Source of the DNA: Heyndrickxia acidiproducens DSM 23148
Lineage (GTDB): Bacteria > Bacillota > Bacilli > Bacillales > Bacillaceae_C
Assembly (NCBI RefSeq): GCF_000374345.1
Contig: NZ_KB893976.1
Location: forward strand, 1-64,000
Length of the DNA: 64,000 nt
Direction of reading: 5' to 3'
The position numbers and the translations under genes are program-made. Shown here piece by piece: positions 11,191 through 63,465 of this stretch. Every line of letters starts with the position of its first letter. Positions within the stretch are counted from its first letter, which is position 1. The notes below the pieces were generated by a model. The model did no database searches, was not told the origin of the DNA, and worked only from the letters and a program-made list of their open reading frames with translations.

Positions 11191-13869
11191 ATGATGTTTC
11201 ATGAAATGAGTGAAAAAGACGTCGAACAGGCATTAAGCACCAATCTTGAAAAAGGGCTCACGGAAAAAGAAGCAGAAAAAAGGAGAAGACAGTACGGGTA
11301 TAATGAGCTGGCGGAAGGGGAAAAGGAATCTGCCCTCATTCTCTTTTTAAGCCAGTTTAAAGATTTTATGACGCTCGTCCTGCTTGCTGCGACGGTCATT
11401 TCCGGGTTTTTGGGCGAGTATGTCGACGCGGTTGCCATCGTCGCGATTGTTCTGATTAACGGGTTTCTCGGCTTTTTCCAGGAACGCCGGGCCGAAAAAT
11501 CTTTGGCGGCGCTGAAAGAACTCTCAGCCCCGCAGGTTTATGTACAGCGCGGGGGGCAGTGGCTGAAAATCCCGTCAAAGGAAGTGGTGGCCGGGGATAT
11601 TGTAAAATTTGAAAGCGGCGACCGTATTGGGGCCGATATCCGCATCATAAAAGCCAATAATTTAGAAATTGAAGAGTCGGCGCTGACCGGAGAATCGATT
11701 CCGTCTCCTAAAACAAGCGCCGCCCTCTCCGGGGAGAATGCCAGTTTAGGAGACCTGCGCAATATGGCATTTATGGGCACGATGGTCACAAGGGGGAACG
11801 GTATCGGGATTGTCACCGGGACCGGGATGAAAACAGCAATGGGCGAAATTGCCGATATGATTCAGAATGCCGATGCCCTGACAACCCCTTTGCAAAGAAG
11901 GCTGGAGCAGCTCGGGAAAATTTTAATTGTCGTTGCGCTCTTGCTGACATTGCTTGTCGTGCTCGTCGGTGTCTGGCGCGGACATGATTTATATTCAATG
12001 TTTTTAGCAGGTGTATCGCTTGCGGTAGCGGCGATTCCGGAGGGGCTGCCGGCCATCGTTACCATTGCCCTCTCGCTCGGCGTTCAGCGCATGATCCGCA
12101 AAAACGCGATTGTCCGCAAATTGCCGGCTGTTGAAACGCTCGGCTGCGCATCTGTGATCTGCTCCGATAAAACCGGAACCATGACGCAAAACAAAATGAC
12201 GGTGACCCATCTGTGGAGCGGCGGGCAAACTTGGCAGGTTTCGGGAACCGGTTATACACCGAACGGTACATTTACGCAAGGGGAGACGGAAATCCACCCG
12301 CTGAAAGAAAAAAGCGTATACCAGTTGCTGACATTCGGGCTTTTATGCAACCATGCCGAACTGAAGGTAAAGGGTGAGGAATATATTGTGGACGGCGACC
12401 CGACGGAGGGCGCTCTCCTGGTATCCGCCTTAAAAGCCGGGCTGACAAGGGACCTGTTGTTAAAAGAGTTTACGATTGAACAGGAATTCCCGTTTGATTC
12501 AACGCGGAAAATGATGAGCATGGTGATCCGTGATAAACATGGCAAACTGTTTGTGATCACAAAAGGCGCGCCGGATGTGCTGCTGAATTTAAGCCGTTCG
12601 GTGCTGTGGGACCACCGTGAACAACCGTTGTCGGGTGAGTACCACAAACAGGTCCGGGATGCCGTTGACGGCTTGGCCTCACAGGCGCTCAGAACGATTG
12701 CGATTGCGTTCAAGCCGCTTTCCGGCGGGCAAAAAGTGGCCCATGAACAGGATGCTGAAAAAGACTTGATTTTCCTCGGTGTACAGGGAATGATTGATCC
12801 GCCGCGTCCGGAAGTCAGACAAGCCATTAAAGAATGCAAAGAGGCCGGAATCCGGACGGTGATGATCACAGGCGACCATGCAGTAACGGCGAAAGCAATC
12901 GCCAGGCAGCTTGGCATTTTGCAAAGGAATCACAAGGTCATGGACGGCGGCATGTTAAACCAAATGACGGTCGATGAACTGGAAGAGGTGATTGATGAGG
13001 TTTCTGTATTTGCACGCGTGTCTCCGGACCACAAATTGAAAATTGTCAAGGCATTCCAGAACCGCGGCCATATTGTGGCGATGACAGGGGACGGCATCAA
13101 TGACGCGCCGGCAATTAAACATGCGGACATCGGCATTTCCATGGGGATTACGGGCACGGATGTGGCAAAGGAAGCTTCCTCTCTGATCTTGTTGGATGAC
13201 AATTTTGCCACGATCAAATCCGCTATTCAGGAAGGCCGGAATATATATGAAAACATCAGGAAATTTATTCGTTACCTGCTTGCTTCAAACGTCGGTGAAA
13301 TTCTGGTCATGCTGTTTGCAATGCTTTTGTCGCTGCCGCTGCCGGTTGTGCCGATCCAGATTCTCTGGGTCAATCTTGTTACAGACGGGCTGCCGGCGAT
13401 GGCACTCGGGCTTGACCAGCCGGAAGAAGACGTCATGCAGCGCAAGCCCCGTCATCCGCGTGAGGGCGTGTTTGCAAGAGGGCTCGGCTGGAAAGTGGTG
13501 TCGCGCGGCTTTTTAATCGGGCTTGTCACATTAATTGCGTTTATGACGGTTTACTATCAAAACACCGATAATCTGGCGTATGCCCAGACCGTAGCCTTTG
13601 CGACCCTTGTTTTGGCACAGCTGATCCATGTGTTTGACTGCCGCAGCGAGCGCTCAATCCTGGCGCGAAACCCGTTTGGCAACCTTTATCTTGTGCTGGC
13701 GGTGCTATCATCTGTGCTGCTCATGCTGGTTGTCATTTATTTGCCGGCGCTGCAGCCAATTTTCCATACGCTTCCAATTCTGCCGAAAGACTGGCTGCTG
13801 ATTATATGCCTGAGTGCGGTTCCGACATTTCTGCTGGCCGGTTCCTATTATATAAGAAAAAAGAATTGA
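11191..13869 (+). CDS. Calcium-translocating P-type ATPase (SERCA-like, YloB)
   Basis: Type IIA P-type ATPase of 892 residues that pumps Ca2+ across the cytoplasmic membrane. Domains in order are a cation ATPase N-terminal region, TM1-2, the actuator domain with LTGESIP (about 168), TM3-4 with IPEGLPAI carrying the ion ligands, the phosphorylation motif CSDKTGTMT with Asp326, the nucleotide-binding domain, the hinge TGDGINDAPA and six C-terminal helices with LWVNLVTDGLPA. Length and motifs are intact. The ATG at 11191 (a second one is at 11194) follows AAGGGGAG. The position next to rqcH equals yloB of B. subtilis, which functions in spores and Ca2+ efflux. Confidence 0.93.
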   Translation: MMFHEMSEKDVEQALSTNLEKGLTEKEAEKRRRQYGYNELAEGEKESALILFLSQFKDFMTLVLLAATVISGFLGEYVDAVAIVAIVLINGFLGFFQERRAEKSLAALKELSAPQVYVQRGGQWLKIPSKEVVAGDIVKFESGDRIGADIRIIKANNLEIEESALTGESIPSPKTSAALSGENASLGDLRNMAFMGTMVTRGNGIGIVTGTGMKTAMGEIADMIQNADALTTPLQRRLEQLGKILIVVALLLTLLVVLVGVWRGHDLYSMFLAGVSLAVAAIPEGLPAIVTIALSLGVQRMIRKNAIVRKLPAVETLGCASVICSDKTGTMTQNKMTVTHLWSGGQTWQVSGTGYTPNGTFTQGETEIHPLKEKSVYQLLTFGLLCNHAELKVKGEEYIVDGDPTEGALLVSALKAGLTRDLLLKEFTIEQEFPFDSTRKMMSMVIRDKHGKLFVITKGAPDVLLNLSRSVLWDHREQPLSGEYHKQVRDAVDGLASQALRTIAIAFKPLSGGQKVAHEQDAEKDLIFLGVQGMIDPPRPEVRQAIKECKEAGIRTVMITGDHAVTAKAIARQLGILQRNHKVMDGGMLNQMTVDELEEVIDEVSVFARVSPDHKLKIVKAFQNRGHIVAMTGDGINDAPAIKHADIGISMGITGTDVAKEASSLILLDDNFATIKSAIQEGRNIYENIRKFIRYLLASNVGEILVMLFAMLLSLPLPVVPIQILWVNLVTDGLPAMALGLDQPEEDVMQRKPRHPREGVFARGLGWKVVSRGFLIGLVTLIAFMTVYYQNTDNLAYAQTVAFATLVLAQLIHVFDCRSERSILARNPFGNLYLVLAVLSSVLLMLVVIYLPALQPIFHTLPILPKDWLLIICLSAVPTFLLAGSYYIRKKN

Positions 13870-13886
13870 ATTATGGTATAATCTTT

Positions 13887-13921
13887 AAAGTAATAGGGAG
13901 AGACTCTATTACTTTTCTTTT
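13887..13921 (+). terminator. Terminator after the Ca2+ ATPase gene
   Basis: AAGTAATAG (13888-13896) pairs with CTATTACTT (13906-13914) and is followed by a T-rich run. Confidence 0.75.
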
Positions 13922-14082
13922 TGGAAGGAAAACTTCAGCCCGCTTTTTCAGATCATAACGGGCCGGCAGCACTTTACATTTTCCTTTTCTTATTGAAACC
14001 GGCGCGGTATAATCAACCATAATAGCATGTTGCCGGTTCAGAATTTCTTGCGGAAACAAACAAGAGGATTGGACGTGAGAAG

Positions 14083-14958
14083 ATGGTTTTAAGCATGACC
14101 GGCTACGGCAGAGGCCAAAAAGGGTCGAAACTGTTCAATGTGACCGTTGAAATCAAATCTGTCAACCATCGTTACTGCGAATTTCAAATGCGGATGCCAA
14201 AACAGCTGATAAAAATCGAAGACCAATTAAAGAAAACGATCGGCCGGTTTATCAAAAGAGGCCGTGTGGATGTATTTGTTACAGTTGCCGGAGAGGGGCT
14301 TGTCAGGCGGAAACTGCGTGTGGACTGGGAACTGCTTGATGAATACCACCAGTTTCTAAGCCGGCTCCAGCAAAAATACGGAATTCAATCAGGTTTTGGC
14401 ATTCGCGAGTTATTAAATCATGAAGATTTAGTTACAATAGAAGAAATAGAAGCGGAAAATGAAGAAGTCTCTGTGCTCGTCATGGATGCTTGCAGGGAGG
14501 CAGCCGGGCAATTAAGAAGCATGCGCGAAAAAGAAGGGAACGCACTGCAAAAAGACTTGGAACAGCTCCTTGGCTCGGTTTCACAGCATCTTACCGTCAT
14601 TAAAGCGCATGCTTCAACACTTGCAGATACATATCGCAATAAACTGCAAAAAAGGATGCAGGAACTGGTGAACGGGCAGATGGACGAAGCAAGAATTGCC
14701 CAGGAAGCGGCACTGTTTGCCGATAAATCCGATGTTCACGAAGAAATAACAAGACTTGAGAGCCACTTGCTTCAATTTGCGGAAACGCTCATGCTCGATG
14801 AACCGATCGGCAGGAAACTGGATTTCATGATTCAGGAGATGAACAGGGAAGTCAATACCATCGGTTCAAAAGCCAATGCTTCGCAAATCTCAACGGCTGT
14901 AGTTGAATTGAAAACAATCCTCGAAAAAATGCGCGAACAGGTACAAAACATAGAATAA
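14083..14958 (+). CDS. yicC: YicC/YloC family endoribonuclease
   Basis: YicC-family protein of 291 residues. It starts with the family signature MTGYGRG and KSVNHRYCEF, has long central helices and ends with the conserved LDFMIQEMNREVNTIGSKA and a Glu-rich segment. E. coli YicC is an endoribonuclease acting on small RNAs, and B. subtilis YloC is a homologue; the target here is unknown. It begins the yloC-remA-gmk-rpoZ cluster seen in other Bacillaceae. The ribosome binding site is weak (AGAGGATTGG upstream). Confidence 0.88.
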   Translation: MVLSMTGYGRGQKGSKLFNVTVEIKSVNHRYCEFQMRMPKQLIKIEDQLKKTIGRFIKRGRVDVFVTVAGEGLVRRKLRVDWELLDEYHQFLSRLQQKYGIQSGFGIRELLNHEDLVTIEEIEAENEEVSVLVMDACREAAGQLRSMREKEGNALQKDLEQLLGSVSQHLTVIKAHASTLADTYRNKLQKRMQELVNGQMDEARIAQEAALFADKSDVHEEITRLESHLLQFAETLMLDEPIGRKLDFMIQEMNREVNTIGSKANASQISTAVVELKTILEKMREQVQNIE

Positions 14959-15900: not shown

Positions 15901-16107
15901 ATGCTGTATCCATCTATTGACGAATTACTTAAGATTATTGACTCAAAATATTCGCTGGTTACGATTGCTGCAAAACGGGCGCGTATATTGCAGGAAAATG
16001 GCAATGAAACTCTGGACCATTATGTATCAGATAAATATGTCGGAAAAGCGCTGGAAGAGATTTATGCCGGCACACTCCGCATCAAACAGGACGAACCGGC
16101 TTCCTGA
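15901..16107 (+). CDS. rpoZ: RNA polymerase omega subunit
   Basis: Omega subunit of 68 residues that helps assemble beta-prime into RNA polymerase. [28 protein letters not shown] matches the family core. The ATG follows TTGGAGG. It lies three bases after gmk. Confidence 0.95.
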
Positions 16108-51458: not shown

Positions 51459-52718
51459 ATGCAATTTGGCTCTGTAGTTGAATCGGCAATCTCAAGGCTT
51501 GCCCATACAAATTTGCAGACTTTCGAATTTAAAACCGGGCAAATTTTTTTCGCCAGCATTCAAAAGCTGTTTTCAAACCGCACCGCCCTGGTCAAAGCGG
51601 GTCCGCATACTTTTGTGGCGAAGCTGGAAGTCCCGGTTGAGAGCGGGAAGGGTTATTGGTTCCAAACCGTTTCCGCCGGGGGGGATGTGCAGTTGAAAAG
51701 GCTGGCCGGGCCGGACCGTACGGGAAGTGATACGCTCTTTTCCCAATTGCAACTGCCGGCCGGCAAAGAATACCGGGCCCTCGTCTCCTATTTGTCAAGC
51801 CAAAATCTTCCGTTCACAAAAGGGATGATCAGCGATCTTGGCAGCTGGCTGAAAGAAGCCCCGGACTTGCAAAAAGGGTTGGAGGCGGCAAAGGCAATGC
51901 TTGGAAACGGGTTGCCGCTGACAGAAGGCATCTTCCATTCGCTCGCCACAGCGGATCAGGCTGTGCCGGCTGCCACCCTGCTTAAAACCCTGCAGGCACA
52001 ATTACAGCAGGAAAAACCGGCGGCACCATTAACCAAAACTATTTTATCAGCGCTGCAATCCGTTCTTGAACCGGAGAATCAGCCGCTTAGCGCAACCGGC
52101 AGCGGAATTGCCATGCAGATCAAAGACTTGATCAGAAAACTCGGCCTCTTTTATGAAAGCGGGATTCCTGACCTGCAGGAAAATTGGGATCAGGTTGCTG
52201 AAAAACCGTTAAAAGCACTGCTTGTTGAAATGCTGCAAAAAGAAGCCGGCCCGCAAAAGGCGCGTGAGACAGCGGAACAGCTTGTTTTAAAGATGAATGG
52301 CCAGCAGCTGGTTACCGCCCTCAATACACCCGTTCAGCATATTCTGATAGACCTGCCGCTGAATTTTCCGCATTTTCAAACCCACGCTGCCATCCAGTGG
52401 TCAGGCAAACAGAAGAACAATGGACAACTTGACAGTGATTATTGTAAAATCGTCTTTTATCTTGATTTGCAATTTTCAAATGAAACTCTTGTTGAAATGA
52501 ATGTCCAAAACCGAATCATTTCTATAAATGTCAGCAATGGCAGCCCGCAATTTCAGGAGGCGGCGTGTAAAATCCTGCCGGCATTAAAAGCCAACTTGCA
52601 AAAGCTCAATTATACATTGTCGGCCGTCCATTTTCGTGCCCCCGGGGACGGGCTGCCGCTGCTTCCGGCTGCATTGCAACAAGAATCTTCCTATAAAGGG
52701 GTGGATATCAGGATATGA
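51459..52718 (+). CDS. YlqG-like protein with a FliK-like C-terminal region
   Basis: Hypothetical protein of 419 residues in the position of B. subtilis ylqG. The first part (about 1-110) is beta-rich, the middle is helical and Gln/Leu-rich, and the last 90 residues (from about NGQLDSDYCKIVFYLDL to SAVHFRAPGDG) follow the beta-beta-alpha pattern of FliK C-terminal (Flg_hook) domains: alternating hydrophobic strands, then LKANLQKLNYTLSAVHF. That similarity is my reading and not a search result. The gene overlaps ylqH by four bases (ATGA). I use ATG 51459; the GTG at 51450 is possible and the ribosome binding site is weak (AAAGGCG). Confidence 0.7.
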   Translation: MQFGSVVESAISRLAHTNLQTFEFKTGQIFFASIQKLFSNRTALVKAGPHTFVAKLEVPVESGKGYWFQTVSAGGDVQLKRLAGPDRTGSDTLFSQLQLPAGKEYRALVSYLSSQNLPFTKGMISDLGSWLKEAPDLQKGLEAAKAMLGNGLPLTEGIFHSLATADQAVPAATLLKTLQAQLQQEKPAAPLTKTILSALQSVLEPENQPLSATGSGIAMQIKDLIRKLGLFYESGIPDLQENWDQVAEKPLKALLVEMLQKEAGPQKARETAEQLVLKMNGQQLVTALNTPVQHILIDLPLNFPHFQTHAAIQWSGKQKNNGQLDSDYCKIVFYLDLQFSNETLVEMNVQNRIISINVSNGSPQFQEAACKILPALKANLQKLNYTLSAVHFRAPGDGLPLLPAALQQESSYKGVDIRI

Positions 52719-53002
52719 AAACAGAACACCATCCTGCACAAAAAGAAGCGGTTGCGCTCAGCTACAAGGCCGGCATCGATACTGCCCCCGTTGTAAAAGC
52801 AAAAGGGAAGGGGGCAGTTGCCGAACAAATTCTTCAAAAAGCAAATGAAAATCATGTGCCGATCCAGGAAGATCAGGATTTGGTCATGCTGCTGGGCCAG
52901 CTGAATATCAATGAAACGATTCCCGAAGAACTTTTTGAAGCGGTAGCCGAAGTGTTTGCCTTTATTTACAGGACCGACCAGTCTATGAAACCACCATCCT
53001 GA
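52715..53002 (+). CDS. ylqH: FlhB C-terminal-domain homologue YlqH
   Basis: Soluble protein of 95 residues corresponding to the cytoplasmic half of FlhB/EscU after its cleavage site: VALSYKAGIDTAPVVKAKG, VPIQEDQDLVMLL and IPEELFEAVAEVFAFIYR match that domain block by block. The NPTH autocleavage motif and all TM helices are absent, so it is not itself an export gate component. Translation is coupled to the YlqG-like gene. The role is unproven. Confidence 0.88.
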   Translation: MKTEHHPAQKEAVALSYKAGIDTAPVVKAKGKGAVAEQILQKANENHVPIQEDQDLVMLLGQLNINETIPEELFEAVAEVFAFIYRTDQSMKPPS

Positions 53003-63053: not shown

Positions 63054-63465
63054 TCCATTACTTCGATGATTGTACCACTATTGTACCACCCCGGCATTTC
63101 CCCTCAATTGATGTTGTTTTCTGTTGTGATCTGTCGAAAATATAAGGTCCGGCCCTGTTTCACCTTGATATTTTATTTATTGATGTGAATGTATGATTAT
63201 ACAAAACGGCTAATGGAGAATAAGCCGTTTGTCATATGCCATAAGGCTGAAGATAATCAATTATCGGACAAAGTTCCATTATATCCCATGGTATATTATG
63301 CTTTTAAACCAAAAGTCCTATTTTGGGGTATTGTATATCATTTTTCATTAAATTTATAAATATGTTCATTTACAGCCAGAAAGGAAACCATTAAAATATT
63401 ACTTAGTTAACATTTTTGTCGTAAAAAAGAAAAAAACGTCATATTTTTGTTAGAAGGTGTCATTT
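63054..63465. other. codY-flgB intergenic region
   Basis: A 412-base A+T-rich gap with no supported gene. It contains a tandem repeat ATTGTACCAC (63069-63078 and 63080-63089), a hairpin AAACGGCT/AGCCGTTT (63204-63211 and 63223-63230) and a weak promoter-like TTGTAT/TATAAA pair near 63340-63365. I do not see a SigD consensus (TAAA-N15-GCCGATAT) or a clear CodY box here. Confidence 0.5.

Follow-up and report, generated by a model that had tools for sequence, protein, structure and literature searches.

Signalling from FliK to FlhB in the flagellar export apparatus is not settled. The core domain of FliK is described as binding the cytoplasmic part of FlhB (FlhB-C), which lets the gate stop exporting rod- and hook-type substrates and turn to those of the filament type (PMC6972891), and several mechanisms are mentioned as having been proposed for the need of FlhB self-cleavage (PMC7064499). 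In Spa40 the beta-1 strand is reported to be central and buried (PMC2615192). Free-standing relatives are also on record, HP1575 of Helicobacter pylori being listed as the FlhB homologue flhB2 (PMC2864241) and 'flhX-fliK' being mentioned outside the main cluster in Nitratiruptor (PMC9321776).

The window analysed here, a stretch of 64,000 nucleotides from Heyndrickxia acidiproducens DSM 23148, holds a gene pair in which a FliK-like and an FlhB-C-like protein are encoded side by side. The open-licence literature in PMC yielded no functional study of ylqG or ylqH, and no description of the partner family, of its copy in the filament operon or of its C-terminal tail. The two gene names follow Bacillus gene order and are presumed to apply, and we take YlqH of B. 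subtilis to be a member of the family known as FlhX, flhB2 or TIGR00789. FlhX is already known; the conserved tail on its partner is new here.

The ylqG-ylqH locus

The upstream gene, ylqG (51459..52718, forward strand), is an open reading frame encoding a FliK-like partner of 419 amino acids, with an alternative GTG start possible nine bases further upstream. It is followed on the same strand by ylqH (52715..53002), which encodes an FlhX-type, FlhB-CC-like protein of 95 amino acids recognised by Pfam, NCBIfam, PDB and AlphaFold2 matches. Both frames are real and overlap, with ylqG upstream, as the original prediction had it, the stop of one and the start of the other sharing the four bases ATGA at 52715..52718 (forward strand). 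The same prediction had placed this FliK-like/FlhB-C-like pair about 10 kb from flgB, and a flgB-like frame, named by eye, indeed begins at 63457, 10.4 kb downstream. By gene names assigned by eye the pair adjoins rnhB and sucC and stands outside the flagellar operon; the presumed neighbours, named from Bacillus gene order, are rnhB upstream and sucC-sucD, dprA, topA, codY and flgB downstream. YlqG is not the hook-length protein of the main operon, since another FliK, which passes the Pfam cut-off, is encoded in the flagellar region of this genome at C1:72402; a separate FlhB lies at C1:81242. A Flg_hook match above the Pfam cut-off is present in 59 of the 60 genomes searched.

YlqH: an FlhB-CC-like domain without anchor, cleavage site or first strand

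YlqH matches Pfam PF01312 (E 1.2e-18) at profile positions 262-335 of 335, the end of FlhB, and Aquifex FlhB-C (3b1s) in a PDB sequence search (E 2.1e-9). Its best NCBIfam match is TIGR00789 (E 4.6e-28), at 97.3 bits short of the curated cut-off of 117.35, a value exceeded in only one of 77 sampled genomes. The AlphaFold2 model (pLDDT 85.5) overlays on chain 3b1s_B with a TM-score of 0.83 and an rmsd of 1.1, which recovers the CC fold. The four transmembrane helices of FlhB are absent from this protein of 95 residues, which matches the FlhB profile at 262-335 only, and its sequence lacks the NPTH autocleavage site, KEAVAL standing in place of the ADVVITN^PTHYAICL of FlhB from the same genome. 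The description of ylqH as the cytoplasmic part of FlhB, devoid of transmembrane helices and of NPTH, is thereby confirmed, and as judged from these matches YlqH is a soluble FlhB-CC-like domain.

What is missing from FlhX is the strand ADVVITN (beta-1), which in FlhB precedes the autocleavage site and occupies the core of the fold. The stretch before the first FlhX strand is polar, with a mean hydropathy of -2.36 over 121 sequences, versus +1.09 for the FlhB segment in 33 genes that were found by motif pattern among 47 loci (two of which held the same gene), a procedure that may miss divergent sites. In the YlqH model strands are assigned at residues 11-16 and 26-32, and the segment 48-53, which is taken to be beta-4 of FlhB, has no strand assignment, as would fit the loss of a neighbouring strand.

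A soluble domain of this kind might act as a decoy, which the original prediction had named beside a modulator, YlqH (with YlqG) competing for FliK or for substrates and so delaying the switch. The FlhB-C fold without a membrane anchor agrees with such a role, as does the coexistence of a separate FliK and FlhB in the genome; an FlhB decoy alone, however, leaves unexplained why a second gene, whose product has both a switch domain and a tail, so regularly accompanies it, and we regard this account as quite improbable.

FlhX and FlhB also differ as families. A tree built from 124 FlhX and 33 FlhB domains divides them exactly (support 0.953), a split made easier by all 33 FlhB coming from one phylum, that of the host. 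Position 53 is D in 115 of the 124 FlhX versus N in 28 of the 33 FlhB; position 58 is mostly E versus R or Q, and position 88 mostly D or E versus K. These data bear on a second alternative, that YlqH is a spare FlhB-CC able to stand in at the gate for the part that FlhB cuts off, with YlqG as its dedicated FliK or chaperone, the tail of which only holds YlqH until hand-over. Going by the title of Wand et al. 2006, HP1575 reportedly serves as a 'spare part' after deletion of FlhB-CC, and the hydrophobic positions of the fold are kept in FlhX as in FlhB, both in keeping with a replaceable part. The exact division of the tree, which the sampling favours, and the residues at 53, 58 and 88 argue the other way, and on balance we consider a spare part unlikely.

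YlqG: barrel, helices and a FliK/PscP-type switch domain

The AlphaFold2 model of YlqG (pLDDT 85.2) comprises a barrel, a helical array, a region of strands and one helix at residues 292-393, and a low-confidence end at 401-419. Residues 22-87 (51522..51719, this and the following features on the forward strand) form a predicted OB/S1-like beta-barrel, for which the VIA-align matches to S1/OB-type proteins (Z 6-7) are only suggestive. Residues 90-287 (51726..52319) form the predicted helix array, which by alignment varies in length among relatives, and residues 292-393 (52332..52637) correspond to a FliK/PscP-type switch domain on the combined indications of PF02120 in relatives, profile comparison, Foldseek and hhalign. 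The tail GVDIRI, residues 414-419 (52698..52715), was delimited from the sequence and from tail comparison and falls within the low-confidence end.

The switch domain is invisible in the single sequence and visible in the family. By itself YlqG has no hit at E<=1 in either Pfam or NCBIfam, and a scan of genome contigs with this one sequence found no relative. Flg_hook, by comparison, is matched at E<=1 in 28 of 40 rnhB-type relatives (drawn from 52 such loci; best E 3.5e-7), in 25 of 26 partners belonging to Clostridia or to other phyla (from 29 non-Bacilli named loci) and in 27 of 34 phylum-sample partners (from 37), the best value across partner sets being 3.3e-13. Late-operon-type partners, taken singly, match in three of ten cases, and a search of genomes brought three YlqG-type proteins above the Pfam Flg_hook cut-off. 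When the 26 distant partners were combined into a profile, FliK-C (2rrl, E 8.7e-4) came first among the PDB matches, over the switch-domain region, with PscP (5cuk) at E 8.3e-3; an unrelated glycosyltransferase is matched by the same profile at E 9.1e-4 over another region. The hhalign comparison with FliK gives E-values of 1.2e-4 and 1.7e-3 at a probability of only 55 and 15%, respectively.

Structural comparison points the same way with less force. A Foldseek search of the PDB with the YlqG model returned nothing at E<=0.001; PscP 5cuk was second (prob 1.00, E 0.064) and FliK 2rrl 27th (prob 0.97, E 0.4), and the best E-value, 0.03, belonged to an unrelated methyltransferase that VIA-align places on the barrel. 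VIA-align of the model with FliK-C gives a Z of 6.2 but an rmsd of 9.6. Taken as a family, YlqG has, by these profile matches, a FliK/PscP-type switch domain. A chance resemblance to FliK was rejected in view of the Flg_hook matches across relatives together with the profile match to 2rrl. The expectation that the upstream gene ends in a FliK-type domain, and would show profile similarity to Flg_hook (PF02120), was thus borne out at the level of the family, YlqG alone giving no match. DUF6240 recurs as a weak match of YlqG-type proteins and may be a related family; it was the next family after Flg_hook in the set of 40 (6/40) and again second commonest in the set of 34 (3/34), and tied for that place in the set of 26 (2/26).

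Pairing of the two genes across genomes

Of the 60 genomes, the host's own included, 57 have a YlqG-type match, and in one of these (G056) it is only of the late-operon type described below. The 4-bp overlap recurs in 47 of 52 rnhB-type loci, again including the present one, and in 44 of 50 named Bacilli loci when the start nearest the stop is chosen. A scan with an FlhX alignment, one genome per species and FlhB not excluded, confirmed at least 560 stretches, of which the best 80 were kept. In these best 80 of at least 560, the FlhX frames are 58-172 amino acids long and the loci belong by recorded names mostly to Bacilli, other groups being Clostridia, Nitrospirae, Deltaproteobacteria, Arcobacteraceae, Sulfurihydrogenibium, Fibrobacter, Magnetococcales and Hydrogenedentota; several are metagenome bins, the taxon names of which may be wrong. 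In 78 of the best 80 there is a same-strand frame of at least 100 amino acids whose end lies no more than 250 bases from the FlhX match, and 72 of these 78 frames match the YlqG switch-domain HMM at E<=0.01; the frame at L176 is a different gene.

For comparison of the pairs 131 FlhX loci were assembled, namely the 80 named ones, 39 from a phylum sample, 11 of the late-operon type and that of the window; they are not all independent and include the near-duplicates L113/L115 and L164/L168. Gene order is reversed, with FlhX first, at L273, L274 and L275. No FliK-like neighbour was found for FlhX at L176:4619-4936 or L268:1074-1433. By these comparisons FliK-type and FlhB-C-type domains form a linked pair in several bacterial phyla.

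Two loci have peculiarities of their own. L127, labelled Chryseobacterium, carries a Bacilli-type pair and is possibly mislabelled, and at L120:2183-5282 (forward strand) a gene that by eye resembles an acetyltransferase lies between ylqG and ylqH, the latter being preceded by a stretch like a damaged second copy of the end of ylqG.

Association with flagella

A second YlqG-type place was found in 22 of the 60 genomes, G056 having the late-operon kind alone, and 11 loci were read from the 23 genomes with such a match. In these 11 loci the FliK-like protein has 571-1888 and the FlhX 92-99 amino acids. Frames resembling fliS and flagellin genes directly follow the pair in ten of the 11, and flgM-, flgN-, flgK- or flgL-like frames lie nearby in several, these names being given by similarity to L058, in which Pfam confirms FliS, flagellin, FlgM and FlgK. 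In the FlhX tree the late-operon copies group together as one clade (support 0.991), as they do, leaving out L065, in the partner tree (0.886); L065 falls inside the clade in the former and outside it in the latter. The pair at L065:5444-7419 (reverse strand) is degenerate, its FlhX lacking the A-P-x-V-x-A-K-G strand and its partner ending in WEWTI. At L061:6450-12116 (reverse strand) the FliK-like protein reaches 1888 amino acids, compared with 571-891 in the other ten. Elsewhere, the pair at L163 is surrounded by FlgK, a flagellin-type frame, CsrA, flagellin, FliD and FliS; another lies in the vicinity of FliD-FliS (L157), one precedes rod-type genes (L179), one has a rod-type gene nearby (L274) and one follows flagellin (L275). 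The flgB-like frame of L274 had no match at 1e-5.

Co-occurrence was examined in a phylum sample of 199 genomes, the host's included, of which 170 have FlhA and 29 do not, nine of the latter being named by elimination. TIGR00789 was sought at E<=1e-4 in all 29 and in 48 FlhA genomes hand-picked from the 170, about one per family, and an open frame of less than 200 amino acids was counted as a separate FlhX. Such an FlhX occurs in 36 of the 48 genomes with FlhA versus one of the 29 without (Fisher 1.6e-10, relatedness not corrected). The single exception, G081, is ruled out as a flagellum-less genome carrying the pair by its FliP at 13722-14297; as this lies close to the end of a contig at 16032, FlhA and FlhB probably fall in an assembly gap. 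With G081 moved to the flagellar side the counts become 37/49 versus 0/28 (Fisher 7.3e-12, relatedness not corrected), a one-sided adjustment in that G081 is the one FlhA-less genome of the 29 that was searched for FliP.

In 12 of the 48 sampled genomes with FlhA the search brought up no separate FlhX, and among 59 relatives with FlhA the pair is absent from two, G053 and G058, both of which have FlhA and FliP. In G055, FlhA, FliP and the pair are all absent. Taken with the sample counts, these genomes suggest that the module needs flagella and that flagella do not need the module, which therefore looks accessory, as would be expected of a modulator more than of a core switch.

The rnhB neighbourhood of the pair, which the present locus shares with several from Clostridia (gene names by eye), and the OB/S1-type fold matches of the YlqG barrel might be taken to indicate a non-flagellar role, for example one linked to RNA. 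The near-restriction of FlhX to genomes with FlhA, the only FlhA-less carrier having FliP, and the presence of the pair among flagellar genes in other lineages make this highly improbable, and on the co-occurrence of FlhX with FlhA it was rejected as the main reading. The pair probably has a flagellar role. The original prediction of a cryptic switch module is thus supported as to a linked FliK- and FlhB-C-type pair with a probable part in flagellar function and unsupported as to 'cryptic', given a pair that is widespread, mostly intact where read, and located among flagellar genes in other lineages.

The conserved tail of the FliK-like partner

The partner proteins end in a tail of the form phi-[D/N/S]-x-x-phi-COOH. 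In 99 partners the residue at -4 is D in 91, N in four and S in four, and that at -5 is hydrophobic in all 99, positions -7 to -25 being little conserved. A strict motif (D at -4, a hydrophobic residue at -5 and I, V, A or L at -1) is present in 90 of the 99, versus 0.56% of internal positions and three of 30 true FliK ends, the controls coming from close relatives only. The set left out four of 103 partners, L144 for a frameshift and L213, L166 and L176 for a wrong frame or lack of a tail (the L213 genome was later read as L275); with these counted the figure is 90 of 103.

A relaxed motif, requiring D, N or S at -4 and a hydrophobic residue at -5, is present in 122 of 124 pairs, these being the 131 loci less L120, L159, L144, L166, L176, L264 and L268. 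It is present at 123 of all 131 FlhX loci when L120 is added, where a partner with the tail GVDFRI lies about 1 kb upstream behind another gene. The eight loci without it are of several kinds: a neighbour is present and tailless at L166 (L166:3995-4996, Sulfurihydrogenibium), L277 and L264, the pair is degenerate at L065, no partner was found at L176 and L268, the partner is frameshifted at L144, and L159 lies at a contig edge. The partners of the reversed loci L273-L275 keep the tail, as YVNLQV, GVNYKV and GVNFKV, which look alike by eye and may represent one lineage. Retention of the tail in this order rules out that it is an artefact of the overlapping start codon.

The tail resembles the strand that FlhX lacks. 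When all 5-mers of a partner protein are ranked by likeness to FlhB ADVVI, the last five residues come within the top 5% in 74 of 99 partners and within the top 1% in 34, versus a top 5% rank in four of 30 FliKs and in 0 to 4 of the 99 in five other registers. In the usual gene order the tail ends the partner and FlhX starts next, just as strand and CC part follow one another in FlhB. The penultimate residue, -2, is R or K in 96 of 122 tails; FlhB has a valine here, so the register or the docking site may differ. It can be speculated that the acidic FlhX residues D53, E58 and D88 pair with this basic residue; covariation between tail and FlhX is confounded by descent.

The conserved tail might instead have a different target from YlqH, for instance FlhA, FliK or FlhB itself, a possibility that is compatible with the other readings. 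The two FlhX loci without a partner (L176, L268) and the three neighbours without a tail fit this idea, against which the degenerate FlhX at L065, a single case, coincides with the degenerate tail WEWTI. We hold another target to be possible and somewhat doubtful.

A proposed mode of action

Building on what comparison shows of the two domain identities, the pairing, the flagellar link, the tail and the missing strand, we propose, as a reading evenly poised between right and wrong, that YlqG and YlqH constitute an accessory flagellar-export module, forming a complex through docking of the tail and acting on the export gate. YlqH (FlhX) would be a free FlhB-CC domain without the central beta-1 strand that FlhB retains after autocleavage, and YlqG a switch protein of the FliK family that brings an N-terminal barrel and a helical array of its own and is encoded beside ylqH for complex formation. 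The peptide VDIRI-COOH of YlqG would dock on YlqH, the empty beta-1 groove being the likeliest site, and so tie a FliK-type switch domain to a mimic of FlhB-C. We infer that the resulting complex may act on the gate (FlhB, FlhA, FliK) as a soluble second switch or holder and so adjust the transition to filament-type substrates. That one copy lies next to fliS and flagellin points to the filament side of this transition.

A more specific and more tentative version, which we place appreciably below an even chance, is that of a split FlhB-C, with the boundary between the two genes falling at the point of FlhB self-cleavage. In FlhB the strand ADVVITN is part of one chain with the CC domain, is cut from it at N^PTH and remains buried in the middle of the CC fold. 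The tail of a FliK-family protein would fill the place of ADVVITN in trans, separate translation replacing autocleavage and a switch protein replacing the membrane anchor. The result would be a second FliK-FlhB switch, diffusible and always plugged, one version of which is wired to the filament operon. If true, the strand and the CC domain, as separate products and with the strand on a FliK-type protein, would make cleavage and FliK signalling testable with small soluble proteins of a laboratory Bacillus, and a function would be suggested for ylqG and ylqH, genes whose YlqG-type match is nearly general among the 60 genomes.

Comparison with known systems

Three known systems are close to the pair. 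FlhX (flhB2, TIGR00789; H. pylori HP1575) is, like YlqH, a free-standing FlhB-CC-like protein, HP1575 being likened to it by description, and YlqH scores below the curated cut-off of that family (97.3 of 117.35 bits). FliK and SctP (PscP), of family PF02120, have the C-terminal switch domain in common with YlqG, whereas the YlqG model has an N-terminal barrel and helical array and YlqG differs in its tail. The cytoplasmic domain of FlhB and SctU (3b1s, 3b0z, Spa40) shares the CC fold with YlqH, which differs from it in having neither the transmembrane part, nor NPTH, nor the beta-1 strand.
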